DNA from: a virus
IMG/VR virus record: IMGVR_UViG_3300003690_000155
Coordinates: 1,216-38,938 of that record
Length of the DNA stretch: 37,723 nt
Direction: 5' to 3' (one strand)
In this document: piece by piece, positions 1 through 37,723 of the stretch
How the letters are laid out: every line of letters begins with the position of its first letter
Position numbering within the stretch: the first letter of the stretch is position 1
Notes under the pieces: generated by a model
Told to the model about the DNA's origin: nothing
What the model saw: the letters and a program-made list of their open reading frames with translations, nothing else
The model's database searches: none
Program-made: the position numbers and the translations under genes

Positions 1-741
1 TCTGTCGAGTTCGTTCTGGAGACGATTGAGGAGCTTCTTGGGGCAACCGATGAAAAGCTTGTTTTCATCTGGGACTCTCTAGCTTTAACACCAGCTATTT
101 CAGATATTGAGGGCGATTTTAATCCTCAGTCTTCGATGGCCGTAAAGGCGAGAATTCTGGCAAAGGGTATGTCAAAGTTGACTATTCCAATTGCTGATCA
201 ACAAGCTACTTTCTTAGTTCTAAATCAATTGAAAACGAACATTCCACAAGGACCCATGGCCCGTCAAATTGCAATGATCTCGCCTTACACCACTCCAGGC
301 GGAAAAGCTATGCATTATGCTTATTCTTTGCGTATCTGGCTGACCGGTCGCAAGTCGAAGAGTTCCTTTGTTGTTGATGATAAAGGGTTCCGTATTGGCT
401 CTGAGGTTAAGTGTAAGCTAGAAAAGTCTCGCTTTGGGACACAAGGTAGAAACTGTGCCTTTCGCATTATGTGGGGTACACGGGATATTGGGATTCGAGA
501 TGAAGAAAGTTGGTTTGATGCCATCAAGAGTTCTGATTATTTGACGAGTGCTGGAGCCTGGTATACGCTTACAATGCCCGATGGCTATACAAAAAAGTTT
601 CAACCATCTAAGTGGAGCGAACTAATCCGCAACGATTCAGAATTTAGAGAAAAGATTCTTCAACTTATGGATGAAGAGGTTGTGAGAAAGTTTGATGAAA
701 GATTGGGAAATGCGAAAGATTTTTACGAAAAAAATGAATAA
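1..741 (+). CDS. RecA/UvsX-type recombinase, C-terminal part (5' end outside window)
   Basis: The frame is open from the first base and runs to the stop at 741, so the gene enters from the left. The visible part starts just before the Walker B strand (VFIWDSLALTP), followed by the DNA-binding-loop region with NQLKTN and the segment YTTPGGKAMHYAYSLRIWL, which matches the RecA pattern NQxR...TTxGGxALKFYAS. The Walker A motif must lie outside the window. RecA-family proteins form ATP-dependent filaments on ssDNA for strand exchange and recombination-dependent replication. It sits upstream of other replication genes. The sequence looks closer to bacterial RecA than to T4 UvsX, but with half the protein missing this is a weak distinction. 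An internal ATG at 136 is in frame but lies after Walker B, so it is not the real start. Confidence 0.85.
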   Translation, partial: SVEFVLETIEELLGATDEKLVFIWDSLALTPAISDIEGDFNPQSSMAVKARILAKGMSKLTIPIADQQATFLVLNQLKTNIPQGPMARQIAMISPYTTPGGKAMHYAYSLRIWLTGRKSKSSFVVDDKGFRIGSEVKCKLEKSRFGTQGRNCAFRIMWGTRDIGIRDEESWFDAIKSSDYLTSAGAWYTLTMPDGYTKKFQPSKWSELIRNDSEFREKILQLMDEEVVRKFDERLGNAKDFYEKNE

Positions 742-6416: not shown

Positions 6417-6641
6417 ATGAATTTCAATCATCTCTTTGATCAAAAGAGAATAAAAACAATAGGCGATTGTCAACAGGAATGCTATTGGGCGCCCACAGGC
6501 AACATTCGAGCACTCGTTGGCGGAAAAGTAAATATTACAATGTATTGCAAGCATTGCACTTGCCGCGAAGATCTTTTCTTAACAGAAAGCGAGTTCAAGG
6601 TACACAAGAAGCTCTTAGAAGGTGAGGTGGGTATTGTTTAA
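6417..6641 (+). CDS. Small Cys-rich protein of unknown function
   Basis: 74 residues; no family recognised. Cysteines lie as DCQQEC and YCKHCTC, a spacing that could bind zinc or an iron-sulphur cluster, but no named motif fits. AGGAGG precedes the ATG by about 6 nt. Its 3' end overlaps the start of the GroES-like gene by 8 nt, so the two are probably translated together. It is placed between ribonucleotide reductase and a co-chaperonin. Confidence 0.6.
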   Translation: MNFNHLFDQKRIKTIGDCQQECYWAPTGNIRALVGGKVNITMYCKHCTCREDLFLTESEFKVHKKLLEGEVGIV

Positions 6642-6906
6642 GCCTGTTAATCGATACGTACTAGTGGAAACACAGCAAAAACAAGCAGAAATTGCTAGTG
6701 GTATTGTACTCCCAGAGAGTTTTAAGCCAGCTGAAGAAAGACACGCTATTGTGACTGTTTTGGATTGGGCTGACGATGTTAGATTTAAAAATATGTTGCT
6801 TATGGATTCAAAAATTATTATTGATAAATCTATGATGGAAGAAATAAACGTGGATGGAAGTAGATATAATGTAATCCTAGATAATTACATTATAGGAATA
6901 TTATAA
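6634..6906 (+). CDS. groES: GroES-like co-chaperonin
   Basis: About 90 residues, close to the usual 95. The N-terminal strand FKPVNRYVLVE, the mobile loop ending ASGIVLPES (compare ASGIVLPD in GroES) and the C-terminal ILDNYIIGIL are family hallmarks. It would cap a GroEL ring during folding of phage proteins; the partner GroEL gene is about 15 kb downstream in the same window. I chose the TTG at 6634 because GGTGAGG lies just before it and because family proteins start a few residues before this strand. A longer frame from GTG 6622 is possible. Confidence 0.8.
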   Translation: MFKPVNRYVLVETQQKQAEIASGIVLPESFKPAEERHAIVTVLDWADDVRFKNMLLMDSKIIIDKSMMEEINVDGSRYNVILDNYIIGIL

Positions 6907-8399: not shown

Positions 8400-8786
8400 A
8401 TGGCGTATTCAAATAAAGTTGTAGATCATTTTCAAAACCCACAGAATGTGGGCTCTATGGATAAGAGCGATCCCTCTGTTGGCACAGGATTGGTAGGTGC
8501 TCCAGCATGTGGGGATGTAATGAAACTACAATTAAAAATTAATGATGATGGTATTATTGAAGATGCGAAGTTTAAAACATTTGGATGTGGTTCCGCAATT
8601 GCATCTAGTTCGTTAATTACAACTTTGGTTAAGGGGAAGAATATCACAGAAGCAGAGATCCTTACTAACGCAGATATTGCAGTAGAACTGTGCCTACCCC
8701 CTGTTAAAATACACTGCTCCGTGCTGGCGGAAGATGCCGTTAAGGCAGCAATTAAGGATTATAGGGAAAAAAATGACAAAAAATGA
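8400..8786 (+). CDS. iscU: Iron-sulphur cluster scaffold IscU
   Basis: 128 residues, the same length as bacterial IscU and alignable without gaps from memory (MAYSNKVVDHFQNPQNVGSM at the start). The three cluster Cys (C37 in APACGD, C63 in FGCGSA, C106 in IHC), the conserved D39 and H105, and the chaperone-binding LPPVK at 99-103 are all present. IscU builds [2Fe-2S] clusters using sulphur from IscS; no IscS is seen here, so the host enzyme would be used. AAAGGAG precedes the ATG. It overlaps the Nfu gene by 14 nt. The close likeness to cellular IscU points to capture from a bacterium. Confidence 0.95.
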   Translation: MAYSNKVVDHFQNPQNVGSMDKSDPSVGTGLVGAPACGDVMKLQLKINDDGIIEDAKFKTFGCGSAIASSSLITTLVKGKNITEAEILTNADIAVELCLPPVKIHCSVLAEDAVKAAIKDYREKNDKK

Positions 8787-9039
8787 TATTCAAGAAATTA
8801 TTGATGAAGAAATTAATCCTGGGTTAGCAATGCACGGTGGTTATATTTCAATTCATAATTTTGATGAAAAGCATAAATCTTTAAAGCTGCAGATGGGCGG
8901 AGGGTGCCATGGCTGCGCATCATCAAAAGCAACGATGATGCTTGGAGTTGAAAGACATTTTAGGGAAATATTCCCAGATATTGGAGAAATTGAAGATGTC
9001 ACAGATCATATGACAGGTGAAACTCCATACTTCGTTTGA
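8773..9039 (+). CDS. Nfu-type (NifU C-terminal domain) iron-sulphur carrier
   Basis: 88 residues from the ATG at 8773, which overlaps the end of iscU by 14 nt. It is a stand-alone Nfu domain: helix DIQEIIDEEINPGLAMHGGY, then GGGCHGCASS with the CxxC pair (C45, C48) that holds a [4Fe-4S] cluster between two monomers. Nfu proteins deliver clusters from the scaffold to target enzymes. The NfuA N-terminal degenerate A-type domain is absent. It is clustered with iscU and an A-type carrier remnant. Confidence 0.88.
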   Translation: MTKNDIQEIIDEEINPGLAMHGGYISIHNFDEKHKSLKLQMGGGCHGCASSKATMMLGVERHFREIFPDIGEIEDVTDHMTGETPYFV

Positions 9040-10205: not shown

Positions 10206-11092
10206 CAGCTATTCCCCGCCATTCTCACTTGGCCGGCATTATTCCAGTAGCAAATCTTAAGACAGATTTCGATATGGATATTCCGGCCATCATGATGCCT
10301 GTGGATGCTGGCTATACAGCTATTCAAAAGGCAGTTTTTGAATGTGCTATAGCCGGCTGTCAAACTATCTGGATTGTGGCAAATGATGATCTGGCACCCA
10401 TCGTCAGAAAGAGAGTGGGGGAGTGGGTATACGACCCTGTTTATTATTCTCGAAAATTCACCAAATTTTATCAGGGCGTAAGAAAGGAAATTCCTATTTA
10501 CTATATGCCGGTTCATCCAAAAGATCGCGACCGTCGCGACTCTTATGGGTGGGGGGCTTTATATGGTATTCTGGCTGCTTGGAAGGTAGCCTATAAAATA
10601 TCTAAGTGGCTGTTGCCTGATAAGTATTATATTACTTTCCCCATGTCAGCGTATGACATTTATAGCTTGAGAGAGCACAGGATTGAAATCTCCAGTATGA
10701 AAGAAAACTTTTTCCTAACACACGATGACAAAACAGTAAAAGACAACGTACCGCTTGCCTTTACTATGTTTGGAAAAGACTTTAAAGCCTGTCGCAACGC
10801 AGTAAACAAAAAGACAACCAGAACATTTGTTAATCCCCCGCCGGGCGAAATGCCGTCAGAGAAGCTACCGCTGGAAGAACGATGGTCAGCACGGCATTTT
10901 GACTTTAAAGACGTATTCGGAGAGGTGGAGGAAAAGGGTGCGACACGCCTTGAATTGGAGTGGTTCTATGATCTCTCTAAGTGGCGAGAATACTGTAGCT
11001 TTTTAGGTTCAGAAAATATTATAAAAAAGCCAGAAGAAGGCTTGACACAGACACATAAACATAGTAAAATAGCATATGAGGTTGAGGAATGA
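10202..11092 (+). CDS. Putative nucleotidyltransferase-fold protein of unknown function
   Basis: 296 residues from a TTG start that overlaps the previous stop. The first 120 residues (PAIMMPVDAGYTAIQKAVFE, then CQTIWIVANDDL) have the strand-helix-strand order of GT-A-type sugar nucleotidyltransferases, and GWGALYGILAAWKVAY could be the nucleotide-binding helix region. The canonical GGxGTR-type loop is absent, so the call is tentative. It overlaps the polymerase gene by 4 nt, so the two are coupled. Function in DNA modification or replication is only a guess. Confidence 0.45.
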   Translation: MTAIPRHSHLAGIIPVANLKTDFDMDIPAIMMPVDAGYTAIQKAVFECAIAGCQTIWIVANDDLAPIVRKRVGEWVYDPVYYSRKFTKFYQGVRKEIPIYYMPVHPKDRDRRDSYGWGALYGILAAWKVAYKISKWLLPDKYYITFPMSAYDIYSLREHRIEISSMKENFFLTHDDKTVKDNVPLAFTMFGKDFKACRNAVNKKTTRTFVNPPPGEMPSEKLPLEERWSARHFDFKDVFGEVEEKGATRLELEWFYDLSKWREYCSFLGSENIIKKPEEGLTQTHKHSKIAYEVEE

Positions 11093-11529
11093 AAGAAATT
11101 AAATTTGTTGGGCTGCATGCCCATAGTGTTGCGGGTTCTATTTTTGATGCCATTGGGTATCCACAAGCGCATATGGACTTCGCGTATGAGAATGGCAGTG
11201 ATGCCTTGGCGCTCACAGATCATGGCAATATGAATGGGCTAGCGTATCAGGTATTACACGCCAAAAAGATGCAGGCGGAAGGTAAAGACTTCAAACCTAT
11301 CTTTGGTTGTGAGGCATATTTTATCCCATCCATCTCAGAATGGCGCGAAGAGTACACCAAGGCGATGGAAGACAAGAAGAAGGCTCGTGCCATTAAGGCA
11401 GACAAGGCGTCAGGCGCCACTGTAGAGGACGAGGGCGCGAGCAAAAGGACACAAGATGTCCTGCGTAGGCGTAGACATTTGATCCTGTTAGGAGGGCGCG
11501 AGCAAAAGGACACAAGATGTCCTGCGTAG
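11089..11529 (+). CDS. dnaE: DNA polymerase III alpha (DnaE-type), N-terminal PHP fragment
   Basis: The first 127 or so residues are the PHP domain of a C-family polymerase: FVGLHAHSVAGSIFDAIG, LTDHGNMNG and FGCEAYF hold the PHP metal ligands. Translation then enters a duplicated 61-bp block and goes out of frame (tail GREQKDTRCPA) to stop at 11529. Removing one copy of the block joins it in frame to the large downstream reading frame. As it stands this would be a 146-residue fragment without polymerase activity. An alternative is that the duplication is an assembly artefact and the gene is intact (11089-14566). Confidence 0.8.
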   Translation: MKEIKFVGLHAHSVAGSIFDAIGYPQAHMDFAYENGSDALALTDHGNMNGLAYQVLHAKKMQAEGKDFKPIFGCEAYFIPSISEWREEYTKAMEDKKKARAIKADKASGATVEDEGASKRTQDVLRRRRHLILLGGREQKDTRCPA

Positions 11530-11552
11530 GCGTAGACATTTGATCCTGTTAG
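11431..11552 (+). repeat. Exact 61-bp tandem duplication inside dnaE
   Basis: Bases 11431-11491 and 11492-11552 are identical (both begin GAGGGCGCGAGCAAAAGG and end GATCCTGTTAG). Since 61 is not a multiple of three, the second copy shifts the reading frame. One copy alone gives the continuous DnaE sequence HLILLAMNQEGLNNLFKL. Confidence 0.95.
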
Positions 11553-14500
11553 CGATGAACCAGGAGGGCTTAAATAACCTCTTTAAATTGATCTCCGAGA
11601 GCTATAAATCCGAGAATTTTTATCGGTATCCTCGCGTGGATTACGCGCTGCTGGAGAAGTATGGAGAAGGCATCATTGCTGCCTCTGCTTGTCTGGGCGG
11701 CGTCTATGCGGGTAACTTCTGGGAGAACCGTGAGGAAGGCGATGAAGCTGTGTTAGGCGCAATGCGCGAGACAAGTAGGCGTATGACTGAGATCTTTGGA
11801 GATCGCTGGTACGCAGAGCTTCAATGGAACAACATTAAGGAACAACACCAACTGAATCAATATATTATTCAGACTGCTAAAGAGTTTGACATTGGACTGA
11901 TTTCGACAGCCGATAGTCATTACCCCAACCCTGACGCTTGGAAGGATCGCGAGCTTTACAAGCGTCTTGGTTGGCTTGGCAAGGGAACCCCAAAGTGGGC
12001 GGACAGTACGGATCTGCCTGCGGGCGTAGAAGAGATTGGTTATGAACTGTATCCAAAGAACGGAAATCAAATGTGGGATTCTTATAAACAATACTCTGAA
12101 GAGTACGATTACGATGATGAGTTGGTTTTAAATTCTATTACAGAAACGCATCGGATTGCCCATGAGCGCATTGATGCGTTTTTGCCGGATAATACTGTTA
12201 GATTGCCTGATTTTGTGGTGCCAGCAGGGATGACAGCCACTCAGGCGTTGGTAAAGCTTTCTATGGACGGCATCAAGGAGTTAGGTTTCCTTTACAATAA
12301 CGAGTACCTCAGCCGGCTTAAGTACGAACTCAAGGTTATTGATGATCGCGGCTTCTCTAAGTACTTCCTTACCATGAAGGCGATTTCTGATCGTGCGCTT
12401 AGTTCGATGCTCACGAGCCCAGGACGAGGATCCGCTGCAGGTTCGTTGGTAGCCTACGTATTGAACATCACACAGATCGATCCTATTAAATATGATTTGC
12501 TGTTCTCTCGTTTCCTTCGAGCAGATGCGACAGACTACCCAGACATCGATTATGACGTAGCAGATCCGATGGCCTTGAAGGAAGCGCTGATTGAAGAGTG
12601 GGGCGAGGATACCGTTGCGCCCATCTCTAACTGGAACACGCTGCAGTTACGTTCACTAATTAAAGACATTTCAAAGTTGTACGGTATTCCTTTCACTGAA
12701 GTTAATAATGTAACAGGCAAGATGATCTACGAGGCTACGCCCGAAGCTAAACGCCGTCATGGGATTAAGTCTGGTGTATACGCTCCTACGTGGCAAGAGG
12801 TAATGGAGTTTAGTTCATCTCTACAGGAGTTTTTAAATGCCTACCCGGAAGTTAAGACGCATGTTGAGGCCCTAGTTGGGCAGGTACGTAGTTGCTCGCG
12901 TCACGCTGGTGGCGTGGTGGTTGCGGAGAATCTAGATCGATATATGCCGCTGATTAACTCTGGTGGTGTGCGACAGACACCGTGGAGCGAAGGACAGAAC
13001 GTTCGACACTTGGAGCCGATGGGGTTCATTAAGTTTGATATCTTGGGGCTCTCCACTCTTAAGATGATTGAGGAGTGCATCCGACATATTTTGAAGCGTC
13101 ATGAAGGCATAGCAGATCCTACGTTTGAAGACGTAAAGGCATATTATAACAACAACCTGCATCCAGATGTTATTAACTTGGACGATCAGAAAGTGTATGA
13201 AGATATCTTTCACGCAGGCAAGTGGGCTGGTATCTTCCAGTTCACAGAGCCAGGATCGCAGAAGTTCTGTAAGAGAGTAAAGCCGAGAAACATTATTGAC
13301 ATCTCCGCTGTTACTTCCATCTTCCGTCCTGGCCCGCTAGCGGCTAACGTACATGACGACTTTATGGAAGCACGAGAGCACCCACACCGCATCACCTATC
13401 TTACGGATGAGGTGCGGGAGATTACGGAGGAAACATATGGTTTCCTGATCTTCCAGGAACAGATCGCCAAGATCGCCCATACGTTGGGTAAGGATCTGTC
13501 TTTGGACGAGGGAAATAAACTACGCAAACTTTTAACCAAGAAGGGAACAGGAAAGGGAAGCGAAGCAAAGAGAAAGATTTATGACAAGTTCATCGCAGGA
13601 TGCGAAGAAAAAGGAATTAGCAAGGATAGCACGCAAACTTTATGGAATAACTTTGAATACTTTTCAGGTTACGGTTTTAACAAGTCTCATGCTGTTTCCT
13701 ATAGTATGTTGTCTTATCAGTGCGCTTTCCTATTTGCATATTATCCAGTAGAATGGTTAGCAGCGTTCTTGGATAAAGAACCAGAGAGCAGAAAAGAAAA
13801 GGCAATCAACATTGCTAAGAAGTACGGATATAACATTGAGCCGCTGGACATTAATAAGTCGGGCGTTATCTGGGAGATCAGTGAGGATGGCAAGACTCTG
13901 ATTCAGCCGCTTACCTCTATCAAGGGGCTGGGGATGGCAGCGATTGAACAGATACTCAATAACCGTCCTTTTACAAACGCAGAAGATCTTCTCTTTAAAG
14001 AAGGGGTGGCATATGGTAAGTTAAACAAGAAGTCCTTGGACGCTTTGTGTCGAGGGGGAGCGCTAGATAACTTGATTGATGATAGGTTCACTGGCATGAA
14101 GCATTTTTGGTCTGCTTGTATCGTAGAGCGCCCAAAGAACACAAAGAAGCTAGCCGAGAATATGGAACTGTATCGTCCCGAGGGACATTTTAGCGAAGAA
14201 GAAATTATTCAATTTAGAACAGAGCTTACTGGAGTTTTCCCTTTGAATCTCGTGGTAAATGATGATATGCTGAAGAGATTGAGCGACAAATATATTCCGC
14301 CGATTTCAGAATTCGATAGTTTGTTGAATGTGTGTTGGTTTATTCCACGCAAGATTACGCCGAAGAAGACCAAGAACGGTAAAGATTACTGGATTGTAGA
14401 AGTTATCGATAGCAACAATGAACAGACAAGAATCCGTTGTTGGGGAGTTAAACCAGAGAAGGATAAGATCTCGCTTAATAAGCCATACATGGCAAAGCTT

Positions 14501-14566
14501 AAATATGACGAACAGTGGGGGTTTTCTACTTATGCGATTGGGAGAACATTCAAATTATTAGGATAA
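11540..14566 (+). CDS. dnaE: DNA polymerase III alpha (DnaE-type), polymerase body
   Basis: 1008 residues carrying the rest of the C-family polymerase. Visible are the end of the PHP domain (STADSHYP), the nucleotide-binding loop (SPGRGSAAGSLVAYVLNIT), the catalytic palm Asp pair (YPDIDYDV), the third Asp region (IKFDILGLSTL), SRHAGGVVVAE, FRPGPLA, GYGFNKSHAVSYSMLSYQ, a helix-hairpin-helix (LTSIKGLGMAAIEQI) and a C-terminal OB-fold (YWIVEVIDSNNEQTRIRCWG). All polymerase residues look intact. The start here is nominal: a TTG in the duplicated block with no convincing ribosome-binding site. In an undamaged gene it would be fused to the PHP fragment upstream (about 1137 residues). It would be the phage replicative polymerase. 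Confidence 0.92.
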   Translation: MILLAMNQEGLNNLFKLISESYKSENFYRYPRVDYALLEKYGEGIIAASACLGGVYAGNFWENREEGDEAVLGAMRETSRRMTEIFGDRWYAELQWNNIKEQHQLNQYIIQTAKEFDIGLISTADSHYPNPDAWKDRELYKRLGWLGKGTPKWADSTDLPAGVEEIGYELYPKNGNQMWDSYKQYSEEYDYDDELVLNSITETHRIAHERIDAFLPDNTVRLPDFVVPAGMTATQALVKLSMDGIKELGFLYNNEYLSRLKYELKVIDDRGFSKYFLTMKAISDRALSSMLTSPGRGSAAGSLVAYVLNITQIDPIKYDLLFSRFLRADATDYPDIDYDVADPMALKEALIEEWGEDTVAPISNWNTLQLRSLIKDISKLYGIPFTEVNNVTGKMIYEATPEAKRRHGIKSGVYAPTWQEVMEFSSSLQEFLNAYPEVKTHVEALVGQVRSCSRHAGGVVVAENLDRYMPLINSGGVRQTPWSEGQNVRHLEPMGFIKFDILGLSTLKMIEECIRHILKRHEGIADPTFEDVKAYYNNNLHPDVINLDDQKVYEDIFHAGKWAGIFQFTEPGSQKFCKRVKPRNIIDISAVTSIFRPGPLAANVHDDFMEAREHPHRITYLTDEVREITEETYGFLIFQEQIAKIAHTLGKDLSLDEGNKLRKLLTKKGTGKGSEAKRKIYDKFIAGCEEKGISKDSTQTLWNNFEYFSGYGFNKSHAVSYSMLSYQCAFLFAYYPVEWLAAFLDKEPESRKEKAINIAKKYGYNIEPLDINKSGVIWEISEDGKTLIQPLTSIKGLGMAAIEQILNNRPFTNAEDLLFKEGVAYGKLNKKSLDALCRGGALDNLIDDRFTGMKHFWSACIVERPKNTKKLAENMELYRPEGHFSEEEIIQFRTELTGVFPLNLVVNDDMLKRLSDKYIPPISEFDSLLNVCWFIPRKITPKKTKNGKDYWIVEVIDSNNEQTRIRCWGVKPEKDKISLNKPYMAKLKYDEQWGFSTYAIGRTFKLLG

Positions 14567-14572
14567 AACAAA

Positions 14573-15178
14573 ATGAATATAATTAAATATTTTAGTCCAC
14601 TTTTAAAAGAACAGGAGTTGGTCGAAGACTTACCTGTTATTATTCGTGTAAGAAAGTTTGATGAGGATTCTGCCAATGAATTCTCTACGCAGATGAGCAA
14701 AGCACAAAACACAGGACAGCCAGTGATTCCGATTATAATTGATAGCTACGGTGGACAAGTATATTCATTGATGTCGATGATATCCGATGTTAGACATTCC
14801 AAAATACCAGTTGCCACTATTATACAAGGGAAGGCGATGTCTTGTGGTGCTGTACTTGCAAGCTTTGGAACCGAAGGTAAAAGGTATATGGATGCAGACG
14901 CCACCGTAATGATTCACGACGTTAGTTCAATGATGGAGGGCAAAGTTGAAGAGCTTAAAGCAGACGCAAACGAGGCAGAAAGATTAAACAAAAAGATTTT
15001 TTATATGATGGCAGAGAACTGCGGAAAAGAAGAAAATCATTTTTTAGATATTATTCATCAGAGAGGACACGCTGACTGGTACCTCGCGCCACATGAATGC
15101 AGGCGCCACAACTTAGTTAATCATTTACATGTTCCAACTTTAAACATTAACGTTAAAGTTGAATTTAAATTCGAATAA
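14573..15178 (+). CDS. clpP: ClpP-like ATP-dependent serine protease subunit (first copy)
   Basis: 201 residues, normal ClpP length. The catalytic triad can be seen: S90 in GKAMSCGAVLASFG, H115 in TVMIHDVSS and D168 in HADWYLAP. The hydrophobic-groove strand IPIIIDSYGGQVYSLMSMI is also typical. ClpP forms tetradecameric chambers fed by a Clp ATPase; no such ATPase is in this window. In phages it may process virion proteins or alter host proteolysis. It follows the polymerase after 6 nt. A second, divergent ClpP lies 5 kb downstream. Confidence 0.85.
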   Translation: MNIIKYFSPLLKEQELVEDLPVIIRVRKFDEDSANEFSTQMSKAQNTGQPVIPIIIDSYGGQVYSLMSMISDVRHSKIPVATIIQGKAMSCGAVLASFGTEGKRYMDADATVMIHDVSSMMEGKVEELKADANEAERLNKKIFYMMAENCGKEENHFLDIIHQRGHADWYLAPHECRRHNLVNHLHVPTLNINVKVEFKFE

Positions 15179-21876: not shown

Positions 21877-23448
21877 TTGAGTAGAGCGTATAACAGAGAA
21901 CAAACTCTGCAACAGAAAATTATGAAGGGAGTAAACATTCTCACAGATAATGTAGCTTCCACACTAGGCCCCAAGGGGCGCAACGTGCTCTTACAAGAAA
22001 AAGGTAAGACACCATTTATTACAAAAGACGGCGTAACTGTAGCACATTTTGTTGAGTTGGAGGATCCATTTGAAAATGCTGGTGTTCAGATTATTAAACA
22101 GGCGGCAATCGAAACTAATAATATCGCTGGAGATGGCACCACAACCTCCATTGTGTTGGCGAGAGCAATCCTAAGAGAAGCGCAGAAATATGTTACGTCG
22201 GGGGTCTCGCCCTATGATTTACAGAGAGGAATAGAACTTGCAACTAAAGAAATTACAGAGAAGCTTAAAGAACTGGCTGAGCCAGTTAGAAGCACGGATG
22301 AAATCACTCATATTGCAACCATCTCTGCAAACAATGATGAGTCAATCGGAAAACTTATCGCTCTTGCTGTTGATCGCGTGGGTCAAGATGGATCCATTAC
22401 TATTGAAGAGTCACGATCTCTGGAGACTTCACTAGATGTCACAGAGGGCTTTCGACTTGCCGCTGGTTATTGCGCTAATGCTTTTATCACTGATGAGCGT
22501 CGTGCTACTATGCACTACAATGATCCGCTACTTCTGGTAACAGATCATAAAATTTCTGCAGTAGAGCAAATTTTACCTTTATTAGAAATGATATCCAGAG
22601 AGAGCCGGCCCTTGATTGTAGTGGCCGAAGACATTGATGGCCAGGCTCTTGCTGCCATGATTATGAATGCAATGCGTGGAACTCTTAAGGTAGCAGCAAT
22701 TAAAGCGCCTCAATATGGCGAGGAACGTAGGAATATACTTTCTGATCTTGCTGTCTCTACCGGCGCAACTTTTATTACACGGGAAGGAGGCAAAAATCTT
22801 CGTGATGTAAAAATGGTTGATTTAGGTAGTGCAAAACTTATTGAGAGTAATAAATATAATACTACCGTAGTTGGTGGTAAGTGTGACTTTGAACTAGTAG
22901 AACAGCGCATAGAAACGCTTAAAAATTTGATTAAGGATACGGAATCTTTGAAGGAATGCAGTAGGATCCAAGAAAGAATCGTGCGTCTAGCATCTGGTGT
23001 GGCGGTTATTCGTGTTGGAGGAACAACCGAAGTTGAAATGACCGAAAAGAAACACAGAATAGAAGATGCTTTAGAGGCAGTACGTTCGGCCCAAGAAGAA
23101 GGAATTGTTGTTGGCGGTGGGTGCGCTTTGCTGCGCGTTTCTAACACATTAGTTGTGGGGACTAAAAACCGTGATGTCGCCATAGGTGCCGGAATTGTAC
23201 AAGCAGCATGCAGAGAACCGATTAGACAAATGGCCTTGAATGCTGGCGAATCTCCAGATTTAATTATTAACAAGATCGTGGAGTCTGCAGAACAAGAAGG
23301 ATGGGATTTTAAAAACGGCTGCTTAACTGATATGCTAGCTGACGGTATTATAGATCCCGTTAAAGTAACGCGCGTTGCTTTGCAAAATGCCGCGAGTTGT
23401 GCGGGTACTCTTATCACGACAAACTACGGGATTATACAAACAGGATAA
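21877..23448 (+). CDS. groEL: Chaperonin GroEL
   Basis: 523 residues, nearly full length (cellular GroEL about 545). Family signatures: LGPKGRNVLL, TKDGVTVAHFVELEDPFEN, the ATP-site GDGTTTS, RIEDALEAVRSAQEEGIVVGGG with the catalytic Asp of IEDA, and AGESPDLIINKI. The Gly/Met-rich C-terminal tail is missing. The start is TTG, set by GAGGTG upstream and conserved N-terminal spacing. It would fold phage proteins in ATP-driven rings with the phage GroES encoded at 6634, although the two genes are not adjacent as in bacteria. It has its own near-consensus promoter. Confidence 0.96.
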   Translation: MSRAYNREQTLQQKIMKGVNILTDNVASTLGPKGRNVLLQEKGKTPFITKDGVTVAHFVELEDPFENAGVQIIKQAAIETNNIAGDGTTTSIVLARAILREAQKYVTSGVSPYDLQRGIELATKEITEKLKELAEPVRSTDEITHIATISANNDESIGKLIALAVDRVGQDGSITIEESRSLETSLDVTEGFRLAAGYCANAFITDERRATMHYNDPLLLVTDHKISAVEQILPLLEMISRESRPLIVVAEDIDGQALAAMIMNAMRGTLKVAAIKAPQYGEERRNILSDLAVSTGATFITREGGKNLRDVKMVDLGSAKLIESNKYNTTVVGGKCDFELVEQRIETLKNLIKDTESLKECSRIQERIVRLASGVAVIRVGGTTEVEMTEKKHRIEDALEAVRSAQEEGIVVGGGCALLRVSNTLVVGTKNRDVAIGAGIVQAACREPIRQMALNAGESPDLIINKIVESAEQEGWDFKNGCLTDMLADGIIDPVKVTRVALQNAASCAGTLITTNYGIIQTG

Positions 23449-33059: not shown

Positions 33060-33296
33060 ATGAGGCCAAAACGAGGGTGTTTAATTAGATGGGTCAGTGA
33101 TTACGAAACATACGCAGCATATCCCGATGGACTTGTTGGGTTTGATCCTGTATATCGTCACGGAATCGTTATGGAAATAGCGAGTGGTACTGATCCAGTT
33201 TCTATGATTGTGTTTTGCTACGATTGTAGTGGATGTAAATGGACACTGATAGATCTCAAAACCGAAGAGTATGAGGTATTAAGTAATGGAAAATAA
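33060..33296 (+). CDS. Small SH3-like protein (GCLIRW type)
   Basis: 78 residues from ATG 33060. The order RPKRGCLIRWVSDYE, then YRHGIVMEIA and a late strand ending EVLSNGK matches the plan of the right-end MKVGDLV proteins (basic GxLV strand, GIV strand, C-terminal EVxxES-like end). The C-terminal overlap with the next gene also starts at the same place: its end EVLSNGK contains the start of the following gene (11-nt overlap). The function is unknown. Confidence 0.6.
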   Translation: MRPKRGCLIRWVSDYETYAAYPDGLVGFDPVYRHGIVMEIASGTDPVSMIVFCYDCSGCKWTLIDLKTEEYEVLSNGK

Positions 33297-33666
33297 AACA
33301 AAGAAGATTAAGGTAGGTGATTTGGTGTGTATGCCACGCCGTCGCATACCAGGCATGGGAATTGTTGTAAGATATTCTGATGATTTAGCCAGAGAGAGTG
33401 GTGTTGATACGATGAAAATCTTGAAAGAAACCAGAGATATCATAGGCTACACAGACAGAGCACAGATATTTAAAAATGCTTATCATCGTTGTGGTGATAC
33501 CGAGTTTCTTGATCAAGCATTTTATTATAATGCTGCTGGGTGGGCAAGGAAGCCTAAGTTGAAGTTCGCATATGTAAAGTGGACGCGGAAGCCTTCTGAC
33601 TATACGATGAAAGCGGTATTCGCACCGGAGGCGTGGTATCCTGTCGAATGGCTAAAAAGTTATTGA
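33286..33666 (+). CDS. SH3-like protein with KVGDLV start and insert
   Basis: 126 residues. KKIKVGDLVCMPRRRIPGMG and IVVRYSDDL form the first two strands typical of the MKVGDLV family. A helical insert of about 50 residues follows, then LKFAYVKWTRKP and a final strand EAWYPVEWLKSY. It is probably a larger paralogue of the array proteins. A promoter for the tRNA cluster overlaps its stop. Confidence 0.62.
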   Translation: MENKTKKIKVGDLVCMPRRRIPGMGIVVRYSDDLARESGVDTMKILKETRDIIGYTDRAQIFKNAYHRCGDTEFLDQAFYYNAAGWARKPKLKFAYVKWTRKPSDYTMKAVFAPEAWYPVEWLKSY

Positions 33667-36055: not shown

Positions 36056-36084
36056 TTGACTTTGGTGCCATCCGGTGCTATATT
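36056..36084 (+). promoter_or_regulatory. Sigma-70-type promoter of the small-gene array
   Basis: TTGACT (36056-36061), a 17-bp spacer and TATATT (36079-36084), then AAGGAG before the ATG at 36105. It probably drives all genes to the window end. Confidence 0.75.
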
Positions 36085-36270: not shown

Positions 36271-36615
36271 ATGGGTTATCGTTCAGAAGTCGTTTTTATC
36301 GTCGCCAAAGAGGTGATGCCACAGTTTTTAGCCACAATGGCAAAGTCACCAGAGGCACGCAAGATGTGTTTTTCAGAGACAGACATGCGTATCAAAGACT
36401 TTCAAGGAGATGGTAATATCCTGTTCAACTGGTCATACGTTAAGTGGTATGAGGGTTACGAAGAGATCGACGCCATCACCGATTTTATGGACTGGTGCGA
36501 CGATGAAGACGAACATGGTTATCGTTTTTGTCGGGTAGGTGAGAATGATGATGATAACGTGGTGCGAGGCTGGGGCTTTGACGATGTTTATATTTCACGG
36601 AGTATTACGTTTTAA
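36271..36615 (+). CDS. Conserved-looking phage protein (MGYRSE type), unknown function
   Basis: 114 residues. It starts MGYRSEVVFIVAKEVMPQFL and has an acidic centre (DFMDWCDDEDEHGYRFCRVG) and a beta-rich end. The opening resembles small hypothetical proteins common in phages (MGYRSxV), with no established function. Its stop TAA shares a base with the next start. Confidence 0.6.
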   Translation: MGYRSEVVFIVAKEVMPQFLATMAKSPEARKMCFSETDMRIKDFQGDGNILFNWSYVKWYEGYEEIDAITDFMDWCDDEDEHGYRFCRVGENDDDNVVRGWGFDDVYISRSITF

Positions 36616-36737
36616 TGGAGCACTTGTTTGCTAACTGCCATCAGGAGCTATCGCTTCTCGTTATGTGGGCATCTTCGTTGCCTTTTCTGGGCGTGTACCT
36701 TAAATATCTATGGAGCGAGACAAATGAAAATCGGTGA
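36615..36737 (+). CDS. 40-residue membrane peptide feeding the array
   Basis: ATG 36615 overlaps the previous stop. The product MEHLFANCHQELSLLVMWAS, SLPFLGVYLKYLW then SETNENR has one likely transmembrane helix. Its last codons, ending ENR-stop, overlap the start of the first MKxGDLV gene by exactly 14 nt, the same overlap used between array members, so its C-terminus has been shaped by the array start sequence. Confidence 0.6.
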   Translation: MEHLFANCHQELSLLVMWASSLPFLGVYLKYLWSETNENR

Positions 36738-36924
36738 TTTGGTGGTACATTCTAATACAGGTGAATACAACTTTGGTGTTGGACTGGTGGTTAAGTTCCT
36801 TTTTCATGACGATTTTGGAGATGCTCGGTGGGGCGTCGTATGGAGTAACCCGCGTTGGACGCAGTCCGATGGTACGTCTGTGACATATGAAAGCGAAGTG
36901 AAGGTTATAAATGAAAGTCGGTGA
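36724..36924 (+). CDS. MKIGDLV array gene 1
   Basis: 66 residues: MKIGDLVVHSNTGEYNFGVG, strands LVVKFLF and WGVVWSN, ending KVINESR. It is predicted to be a small beta-barrel of SH3/KOW type. The first GDLV strand and the GxGLVV strand recur in all members, while the loops differ. The last 14 nt double as the start of the next copy. Confidence 0.72.
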   Translation: MKIGDLVVHSNTGEYNFGVGLVVKFLFHDDFGDARWGVVWSNPRWTQSDGTSVTYESEVKVINESR

Positions 36925-37025
36925 TTTGGTGAAACATAAATACTATCGTTTTACGGGTATTGCGTTCTGGTGAGTTACGTAACTGGTGGTCGTCGGATAT
37001 GGAGGTGATCAGTGAAAGCAGGTGA
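36911..37025 (+). pseudogene. MKVGDLV array gene 2, decayed copy
   Basis: From ATG 36911 the frame reads MKVGDLVKHKYYRFTGIAFW and stops at 36973. The expected family ending appears in the +1 frame (SSDMEVISESR, stop 37023-37025). The copy is about 85 bp shorter than its neighbours and shifted. The start overlap and the downstream ribosome-binding site are kept, so coupling to the next gene may still work by reinitiation. Confidence 0.65.
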
Positions 37026-37227
37026 TTTAGTAACATATAAGTCTGTGTTTAAACGGGCTGACCTCCTTAGAAAGCGGGGTCTTCGCCCCGCCTTGGGTGT
37101 AGTGGTCTATGTGCAGAACTGCCCTATTAGTGTAACTTATCCTGTCTGGATATCGTGGAACTTTTTAAATAACGACATTAGAGAACAAAACAGCTATGAG
37201 TTGGAGGTTATAAATGAAAGTCGGTGA
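37012..37227 (+). CDS. MKAGDLV array gene 3
   Basis: 71 residues from GTG 37012: MKAGDLVTYKSVFKRADLLR, GVVVYVQN, PVWISWNF, ending ELEVINESR. Same plan as gene 1, with a longer basic first loop. The GTG is preceded by GGAGGTG, which is part of the family C-terminal codons of the decayed copy. Confidence 0.72.
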   Translation: MKAGDLVTYKSVFKRADLLRKRGLRPALGVVVYVQNCPISVTYPVWISWNFLNNDIREQNSYELEVINESR

Positions 37228-37423
37228 CTTGGTGACGAAGGACAGAAGCCGCATGGACAAATCAAACTTTTTCTATGATGCGTGGTTACAGATAGGTATT
37301 GTTTTAAGTATCGAGTTCAACCCCCCGACCGCTCATGGCAGCGATATTGAAGTCTTTTGGTCTAAGATCGGCGTAAGCTGGGAAGACGAGATTGCATTAG
37401 AGGTGCTAAGTGAAAGTCGGTGA
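37214..37423 (+). CDS. MKVGDLV array gene 4
   Basis: 69 residues: MKVGDLVTKDRSRMDKSNFF, IGIVLSIEF, IEVFWSKIG, ending ALEVLSESR. The ATG overlaps the stop of gene 3 by 14 nt and is preceded by GGAGGT. It is conserved at the ends and in the strands; loops are unrelated to those of other copies. Confidence 0.72.
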   Translation: MKVGDLVTKDRSRMDKSNFFYDAWLQIGIVLSIEFNPPTAHGSDIEVFWSKIGVSWEDEIALEVLSESR

Positions 37424-37631
37424 TCTGGTGAGGTTCAAAAGAGCACACGTGTTGGACCCCGGTTTTGCGTATTGTAGCGACTGGGTAGGTCTTATAACAA
37501 AACGTGTAAAGCCACCCGCAGAGTTGAACGAGGTTATTACGATTCACTGGACTTGTCCCGATCACGGAACATTTCAAGCTGAATACACTTACGATGATGA
37601 ACTGCTGGAGATGATCAGTGAAGGTAGGTGA
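37410..37631 (+). CDS. MKVGDLV array gene 5
   Basis: 73 residues from GTG 37410: MKVGDLVRFKRAHVLDPGFA, WVGLITKRV, ITIHWTCP, ending LLEMISEGR. It has the same 14-nt overlap with gene 4, with GAGGTG as ribosome-binding site inside the upstream codons for EVL. Confidence 0.72.
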   Translation: MKVGDLVRFKRAHVLDPGFAYCSDWVGLITKRVKPPAELNEVITIHWTCPDHGTFQAEYTYDDELLEMISEGR

Positions 37632-37723
37632 TTTGATCAGGTACAAGGCTAACTTTCAGCCAGAACCATATGCTCTATGGGTTGGGCCTTGTCTGGTAAC
37701 GTATCAGTATCCACCGCCTGATG
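37618..37723 (+). CDS. MKVGDLI array gene 6 (3' end outside window)
   Basis: Starts at GTG 37618 with the same 14-nt overlap: MKVGDLIRYKANFQPEPYAL, then WVGPCLVTYQYPPPD to the window edge. It shows that the array continues beyond 37723. Confidence 0.68.
   Translation, partial: MKVGDLIRYKANFQPEPYALWVGPCLVTYQYPPPD

Follow-up and report, generated by a model that had tools for sequence, protein, structure and literature searches.

Overlapping KOW/SH3-like genes of marine phages form an array of cassettes that are probably exchanged by recombination in a start-codon repeat

The 3' end of the window, a 37,723-nt stretch of DNA covering bases 1216-38938 of a 38,938-base uncultured viral record, carries a row of small genes that begin with MKVGDLV or a similar motif and overlap their neighbors by exactly 14 nt. 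The locus raises the question of why successive genes should share the same overlap, and whether the junctions are sites at which genes are exchanged. A first-pass annotation had proposed six consecutive copies of small SH3-like genes, in an array that runs off the window and whose identical junctions could let copies be gained, lost or shuffled. All six starts, each with an exact 14-nt overlap, are present in the window, and the array does run off its end: the sixth gene is cut by the end of the 38,938-base record, that is, by the contig end itself. The count of copies stands for five reading frames and one decayed copy, but the upstream partner at position 36724 is an unrelated membrane-type ORF and not a copy of the family. 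The features of the region are listed below, with orthologs in contig L120 of a related virus.

36056 to 36084, + strand: putative sigma70-like promoter, TTGACT-17 bp-TATATT, read from the sequence, 5' of the leader genes
36615 to 36737, + strand: small non-family membrane-type ORF of 40 aa ending in ...SETNENR, directly 5' of the array and sharing the first 14-nt overlap
36724 to 36737, + strand: junction 1, 14-nt overlap in the sequence between the G1 start and the ENR-stop of the 36615 ORF
36724 to 36924, + strand: cassette G1, MKIGDLV...VINESR, predicted five-stranded SH3/KOW-like barrel, 67% ortholog in L120
36911 to 36924, + strand: junction 2, 14-nt overlap in the sequence
36911 to 37025, + strand: cassette G2, decayed by a frameshift, 115 nt, both junctions intact, absent from L120
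37012 to 37025, + strand: junction 3, 14-nt overlap in the sequence
37012 to 37227, + strand: cassette G3, MKAGDLV...VINESR, 58% ortholog in L120
37214 to 37227, + strand: junction 4, 14-nt overlap in the sequence
37214 to 37423, + strand: cassette G4, MKVGDLV...VLSESR, not represented in the L120 array, closest relative (51%) on contig L135
37410 to 37423, + strand: junction 5, 14-nt overlap in the sequence
37410 to 37631, + strand: cassette G5, MKVGDLV...MISEGR, 73% ortholog in L120
37618 to 37631, + strand: junction 6, 14-nt overlap in the sequence
37618 to 37723, + strand: cassette G6, MKVGDLI..., cut off by the contig end, with an intact ortholog at 9845-10066 of L120

The six starts (36724, 36911, 37012, 37214, 37410 and 37618) match a degenerate start pattern with zero mismatches, as compared to 0.18 matches expected by chance. 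A seventh match, with one mismatch, was found at 33307. The 126-aa protein encoded at 33286-33666 also starts with KVGDLV and has relatives at 28-35% in other contigs; judging from its sequence, it is a stable relative of the array family.

The constancy of the overlap follows from the way in which the junction is built. The start, ATG or GTG followed by AAA GTC GGT GA(T), holds a TGA in the +1 frame, and RTGAAAGTCGGTGA read out of frame gives ESR-stop. Because this TGA lies inside the next start, an upstream frame in the +1 phase ends in ...GAA AGT CGG TGA, that is, in ESR-stop. The TGA occupies bases 12-14 of the next gene and closes each upstream frame there, which makes the overlap exactly 14 nt. 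The six overlaps in the window are thus not independent events, since the shared start (...GG, then TGA) fixes the 14 nt mechanically. The base preceding the start is nearly always A, and position -4 of the upstream protein is therefore Ser before a GTG start and Asn before an ATG start. Further upstream, LEVI is the ribosome-binding site GGAGGT.. translated in the upstream frame, so that LEV-I-S/N-ESR is the Shine-Dalgarno (SD) sequence and start of the next gene seen out of frame. In the junction DNA, GGAGGT..TCARTGAAAGTCGGTGATTTGGT, the downstream gene has its ribosome-binding site and start, the upstream gene has the codons for its C-terminus (LEVI(S/N)ESR-stop), and the whole forms a direct repeat of 20-30 nt.

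The same junction recurs in many other contigs. The degenerate junction pattern (ribosome-binding site, start and MKVGDLV) was matched in at least 119 stretches of viral contigs and also in 6 MAG contigs, and stricter patterns added few loci. A profile built from the junction matches gave 1,291 members at 126 loci among the matches listed, some of them on near-identical contigs; the retrieval pattern picks loci with at least one strong junction, and family-wide frequencies apply to such loci. Of these members, 578 run exactly 14 nt into the next one, 83 share 4 nt with it, 15 share 11 nt and 7 share 8 nt; the recurrence of the exact 14-nt overlap across contigs is not due to chance. All listed members of any one locus are on a single strand, and the longest coupled run among them comprises 13 genes. 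A C-terminus of the type E/D/A/G-x-R/G was observed in 98% of the listed, profile-annotated genes with a 14-nt follower versus 13% of the rest, and most genes that have such an end without a 14-nt follower have a start codon there. The third codon of overlapped starts avoids GTT, which makes up 3 of 426 Val codons there versus 34 of 254 elsewhere. A GTT would put Trp in place of Arg or Gly at the upstream C-terminus, which hints at selection on the tail at the protein level.

All data are metagenome assemblies. Whole-contig searches of 17 contigs identified 7-34 members per contig of 146-293 kb, and a gp23-type (T4-type) major capsid gene was present in all 17 contigs of at least 146 kb; none was found in the incomplete 39-kb fragment that contains the window. 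The window array is part of something much larger that belongs to uncultured marine viruses of bacteria. In a collection of 50,697 phage records, tblastn with the family consensus, with a cassette from contig L041 and with a 979-aa string of 14 X-separated cassettes gave no match, a test that is limited by the shortness and divergence of the proteins. The consensus 37-nt junction yielded only chance matches of 19-22 nt in isolate phages, and no usable family was obtained from PHROGs, Pfam or PADLOC. A match of G5 to Cellulophaga phage phiST (E 0.6) was rejected, because the matching stretch belongs to a longer gene, unrelated to the family, that neighbors DNA polymerase III and a ligase. Arrays were also seen in CP070664.1 (L145), filed as a WOR-3 bacterial chromosome, and in NHDW01000006.1 (L144), a 306-kb Methylococcaceae MAG contig; these are either prophages or misbinned phage DNA. 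In a structure search of BFVD, many of the top viral matches (57-86 aa) came from one accession series (A0A516L.., A0A516M..), which suggests that a small number of deposited genomes each encode many of these proteins.

Elsewhere in the window, a DnaE-type DNA polymerase III alpha subunit seems to be split into a short PHP-like N-terminal ORF (11089-11529) and a 1008-aa ORF (11540-14566). The gene may be truly split or carry a frameshift, and identity of the 1008-aa ORF to phage DnaE does not exceed about 32% among its best matches. A GroEL-like chaperonin (21877-23448) is about 45% identical to phage and bacterial GroEL. By eye, we noted a small GroES-like ORF at 6622-6906, two ClpP-like ORFs at 14573 and 19743, and two adjoining ORFs at 8400-9039 that resemble the iron-sulfur scaffold proteins NifU/IscU and NFU and are possible auxiliary metabolic genes.

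Structure prediction agreed with the earlier proposal of small SH3-like proteins with a common fold. Two AlphaFold2 models gave five-stranded SH3-like barrels (mean pLDDT 92 and 89) that superpose on KOW domains, the best structural matches being archaeal Spt5 KOW domains with Z-scores of 9.1 (M. jannaschii Spt5) and 8.5; other SH3-like folds, such as PsaE, score nearly as high. The best solved-structure match of the family profile was NusG (E 0.0013). At the sequence level, no Pfam family matched the window copies above cut-off; the KOW motif family PF00467 was matched by none of them and by 1 of 80 family members, at an E-value of only 0.005. Identity to G1 ranges from 18% to 37% across the family alignment. 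Between orthologs, the pooled dN/dS is about 0.17, with pN below pS in 86 of 93 pairs, which indicates purifying selection. The array members thus appear to be real, functional proteins of about 50-75 aa with one domain.

The nearest relatives of the window are contigs L120, L121 and L123, in which a neighboring gene is 74% identical and the flanking genes are nearly colinear. The membrane-type ORF at 36615-36737 and its 14-nt overlap are both kept in L120. The window order G1-G2(decayed)-G3-G4-G5-G6 corresponds to G1'-x-x-G3'-x-G5'-x-G6' in the L120-type array; the order of G1, G3, G5 and G6 is kept, with other genes gained or lost in between, and the additional gene between G5' and G6' has a 14-nt overlap at either side. 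A length difference between L120 and L121 near the array was considered as a further cassette and rejected, since it is an insertion with a small ORF and a tRNA-like sequence. This 223-nt insertion (L120 10213-10435, with a 37-aa ORF) adjoins the array; both L120 and L123 have it, and L121 lacks it.

Among coupled ortholog pairs of at least 70% identity, the downstream neighbor differed in 56 of 72 and the upstream neighbor in 63 of 78, about 80%. Contigs L041 and L069 have 9 array cassettes in common but arrange them differently, and order can be no better than random, with a longest increasing run of 4 of 10 for L041/L069 (random 4.4) and 5 of 12 for L095/L039 (random 4.8). Fully colinear pairs were also found (L015/L122 and L042/L039, 9 of 9 each), and the rate of shuffling therefore varies. 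Homology breaks exactly at the junction, where DNA identity falls to the random level. If the upstream neighbor differs, identity is about 0.27 before the SD-start region and reaches about 0.9 by its end, and where the downstream neighbor differs, it drops to about 0.27 past position +24 or so of the next gene. Junction windows contained 75% of the 5' ends and 73% of the 3' ends of homology blocks, as compared to 18% and 13% in the nulls; since BLAST ends overshoot into the common junction, these values show whole-cassette blocks with a crossover somewhere within the repeat of about 20-30 nt. For non-array blocks of the same contigs, 14% and 18% of the ends lay near ordinary ORF starts (nulls 9% and 6%). 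At closer range, a single cassette distinguishes L015 from L018, two contigs with 99.5-100% identity along about 11 kb, and both ends of this cassette lie in the identical 20-mer ATGAAAGTCGGTGATTTGGT. In L101 and L108, one cassette is 98.7% identical between unrelated flanks, whereas other common sequence is only about 71-72% identical. Thus, single cassettes are gained and lost and arrays are reordered, as had been suggested from the window; instead of the same copies in the same order everywhere, we found reordered arrays whose members share an SH3-like fold.

The repeat could nevertheless be a passive by-product of an old tandem family, in which the ends of the fold and the ribosome-binding site happen to form a repeat, the arrays change by ordinary turnover and the junction was never selected for exchange. 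We regard this as somewhat improbable, although it accounts for several observations. The KOW fold itself conserves an N-terminal KVGDxV and the last strand, the conserved termini of a duplicated fold would likewise create a repeat, and GGT is used by 272 of 380 family starts without an overlapping upstream member, so that protein and SD constraints explain much of the repeat; the colinear arrays are also as expected. Order inversions and transfers of single cassettes between phages that are otherwise about 71% identical, however, go beyond duplication and loss in place. Unrelated genes carry the junction too. An ESR end that overlaps a family start by 14 nt was found in 72 candidate unrelated upstream ORFs, some probably spurious, and the junction also opens some genes that the profile does not cover. 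In L055, a membrane protein that by eye is DUF2061-like has a junction on either side, and L100 contains a diverged second copy of the region (79%) at a different place.

Expression of the arrays was examined through their start signals. An SD match of at least 5 nt was present at 72% of junction starts versus 31% of other starts, a difference that the retrieval pattern favors. GTG is the start codon at 300 of 504 overlapped junctions and ATG at 315 of 380 other starts. In the collected loci, a sigma70-like promoter motif occurs 191 times on the coding strand versus 8 times on the other; this type of promoter precedes only 2 of 610 inner starts and 17 of 431 other starts. We infer that the overlapping genes are probably translated in series by coupling. 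The 14-nt overlap might then exist mainly for translational coupling and dosage, in chains of termination and reinitiation, with exchange being secondary. The strong SD match inside the upstream gene and the prevalence of weak GTG starts at overlapped junctions are in favor of this explanation, which we consider unlikely as the principal one: coupling is compatible with exchange in the repeat, but leaves the end of homology at the junction and the shuffled order unexplained.

An assembly artefact, in which unrelated fragments were joined at the 20-30 nt repeats to give both the arrays and their apparent shuffling, is very unlikely. The breakpoints do coincide exactly with short repeats, every sequence comes from an assembly, and the sample sets of L015 and L018 have neighboring numbers. 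Against this, the three separate assemblies L120, L121 and L123 agree in the identity and order of their 24 members, order is likewise the same in L016/L058, L130/L131, L037/L070 and L085/L027 at 99-100% DNA identity, and the dN/dS values and intact frames argue for real genes. Movement of the cassettes by a dedicated enzyme system (a diversity-generating retroelement, an integron-type or another site-specific recombinase) is highly improbable. Single-gene cassettes with constant borders do look like an integron cassette array, but 23 contigs, many of them incomplete, yielded neither a reverse transcriptase nor a recombinase of the tyrosine or serine type, and the border is a coding, ribosome-binding repeat that functions in one orientation only.

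The explanation that we consider probable is a plug-in array of translation-coupled KOW/SH3-like cassettes, probably host-modulating, that are exchanged by general recombination in the start-codon repeat. As comparison of the arrays shows, general recombination between the repeats, or a process with the same outcome, appears to delete, insert, reorder and transfer whole cassettes. Crossovers would fall within the 20-30 nt direct repeat of the junction, in or beside the overlap, and because of this position every product would keep its frame, start and ribosome-binding site. Upstream promoters would provide for serial translation of the coupled genes, and the exchange could be performed by a UvsX/RecA-like recombinase of the phage or by annealing during replication. 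A RecA/UvsX-like gene was identified in all 19 contigs searched, including the window record, in which the open-ended first ORF (window 1-741) gives the RecA/UvsX-type match at record base 1222. The targets of the rapidly reassorted proteins may be transcription or translation of the host, or its defences. With regard to their role, we can only tentatively suggest, from the fold and the genomic setting, that they help to take over the host or to counter its defences through partners in transcription or translation; a shared fold in itself proves no function.

Taken one step further, a single sequence of 20-30 nt would be ribosome-binding site, start, both termini and recombination site at once, and a common pool of KOW effectors, occasionally with unrelated genes, would be reassorted across marine phage lineages without breaking expression; we lean slightly towards this broader view. 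The distinctive feature is a coding repeat with ribosome-binding site, start and both termini that serves a paralogous array of tens of genes. An exchange site inside the translated junction offers a sequence-level answer to the problem of reshuffling accessory genes without wrecking their expression, and provides an easily tested recombination unit. It also accounts for the small, uncharacterized MKVGDLV...LEVISESR proteins of marine phages, which make up a large class and whose C-termini are predicted from their neighbors and not from their function. Should the proteins turn out to target hosts or their defences, the arrays would amount to a natural combinatorial library of mini-proteins directed at the host.

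Several known systems resemble the arrays in part. Integrons hold exchangeable single-gene cassettes behind common expression signals, and the arrays are likewise rows of exchangeable single-gene cassettes with common expression signals. The integron tyrosine-recombinase integrase (PF00589) and the reverse transcriptase of diversity-generating retroelements (PF00078) were both absent from the 23 contigs, which may be incomplete. In contrast to integrons, the border is coding here, there is no intergenic space at the junctions, where integrons have their attC sites, because the genes overlap by 14 nt, and exchange looks like general recombination. Modules of lambdoid phages, such as those of the nin region, have conserved boundary sequences. 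In both cases, short border homology coincides with mosaic breakpoints. Relaxed homologous recombination between phages has been described (PMC3945230, PMC2327257). Lambdoid phages, however, carry different genes at few borders, whereas tens of paralogs per genome share one standard junction here and are reordered within the array. The ORFanage of cyanophage S-PM2, as part of the source describes it, is a block of small unknown genes that is lost spontaneously and rarely conserved in synteny (PMC4503421). It shares with the arrays the small unknown genes in a marine T4-like phage, but that part of the source contains no paralogous family, overlap junction or cassette repeats (PMC4503421). Hypervariable regions of pelagimyophages and cyanophages are described in the literature without an overlap-junction structure, and the MKVGDLV motif was found in no relevant paper of the literature searched. 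The KOW domain of NusG/Spt5 and ribosomal SH3-like proteins have a similar fold, which occurs here as a stand-alone single domain, very divergent and below recognition by Pfam. Mobile regulatory cassettes, or PeSLs, were reportedly described in T4-type phages by Arbiol et al. in 2010 and Comeau et al. in 2014, both of which are cited in PMC4503421. The likeness is that, in T4-type phages, a short repeat between small variable genes permits shuffling of modules. An early promoter between modules, as in PeSLs, was almost never found in the arrays in the search for sigma70-like motifs, the exceptions being the 2 inner starts noted above. PeSLs are non-coding promoter and stem-loop units between genes, whereas the repeat described here lies inside both coding sequences, with the ribosome-binding site, the start and both termini, and joins members of one paralogous fold.
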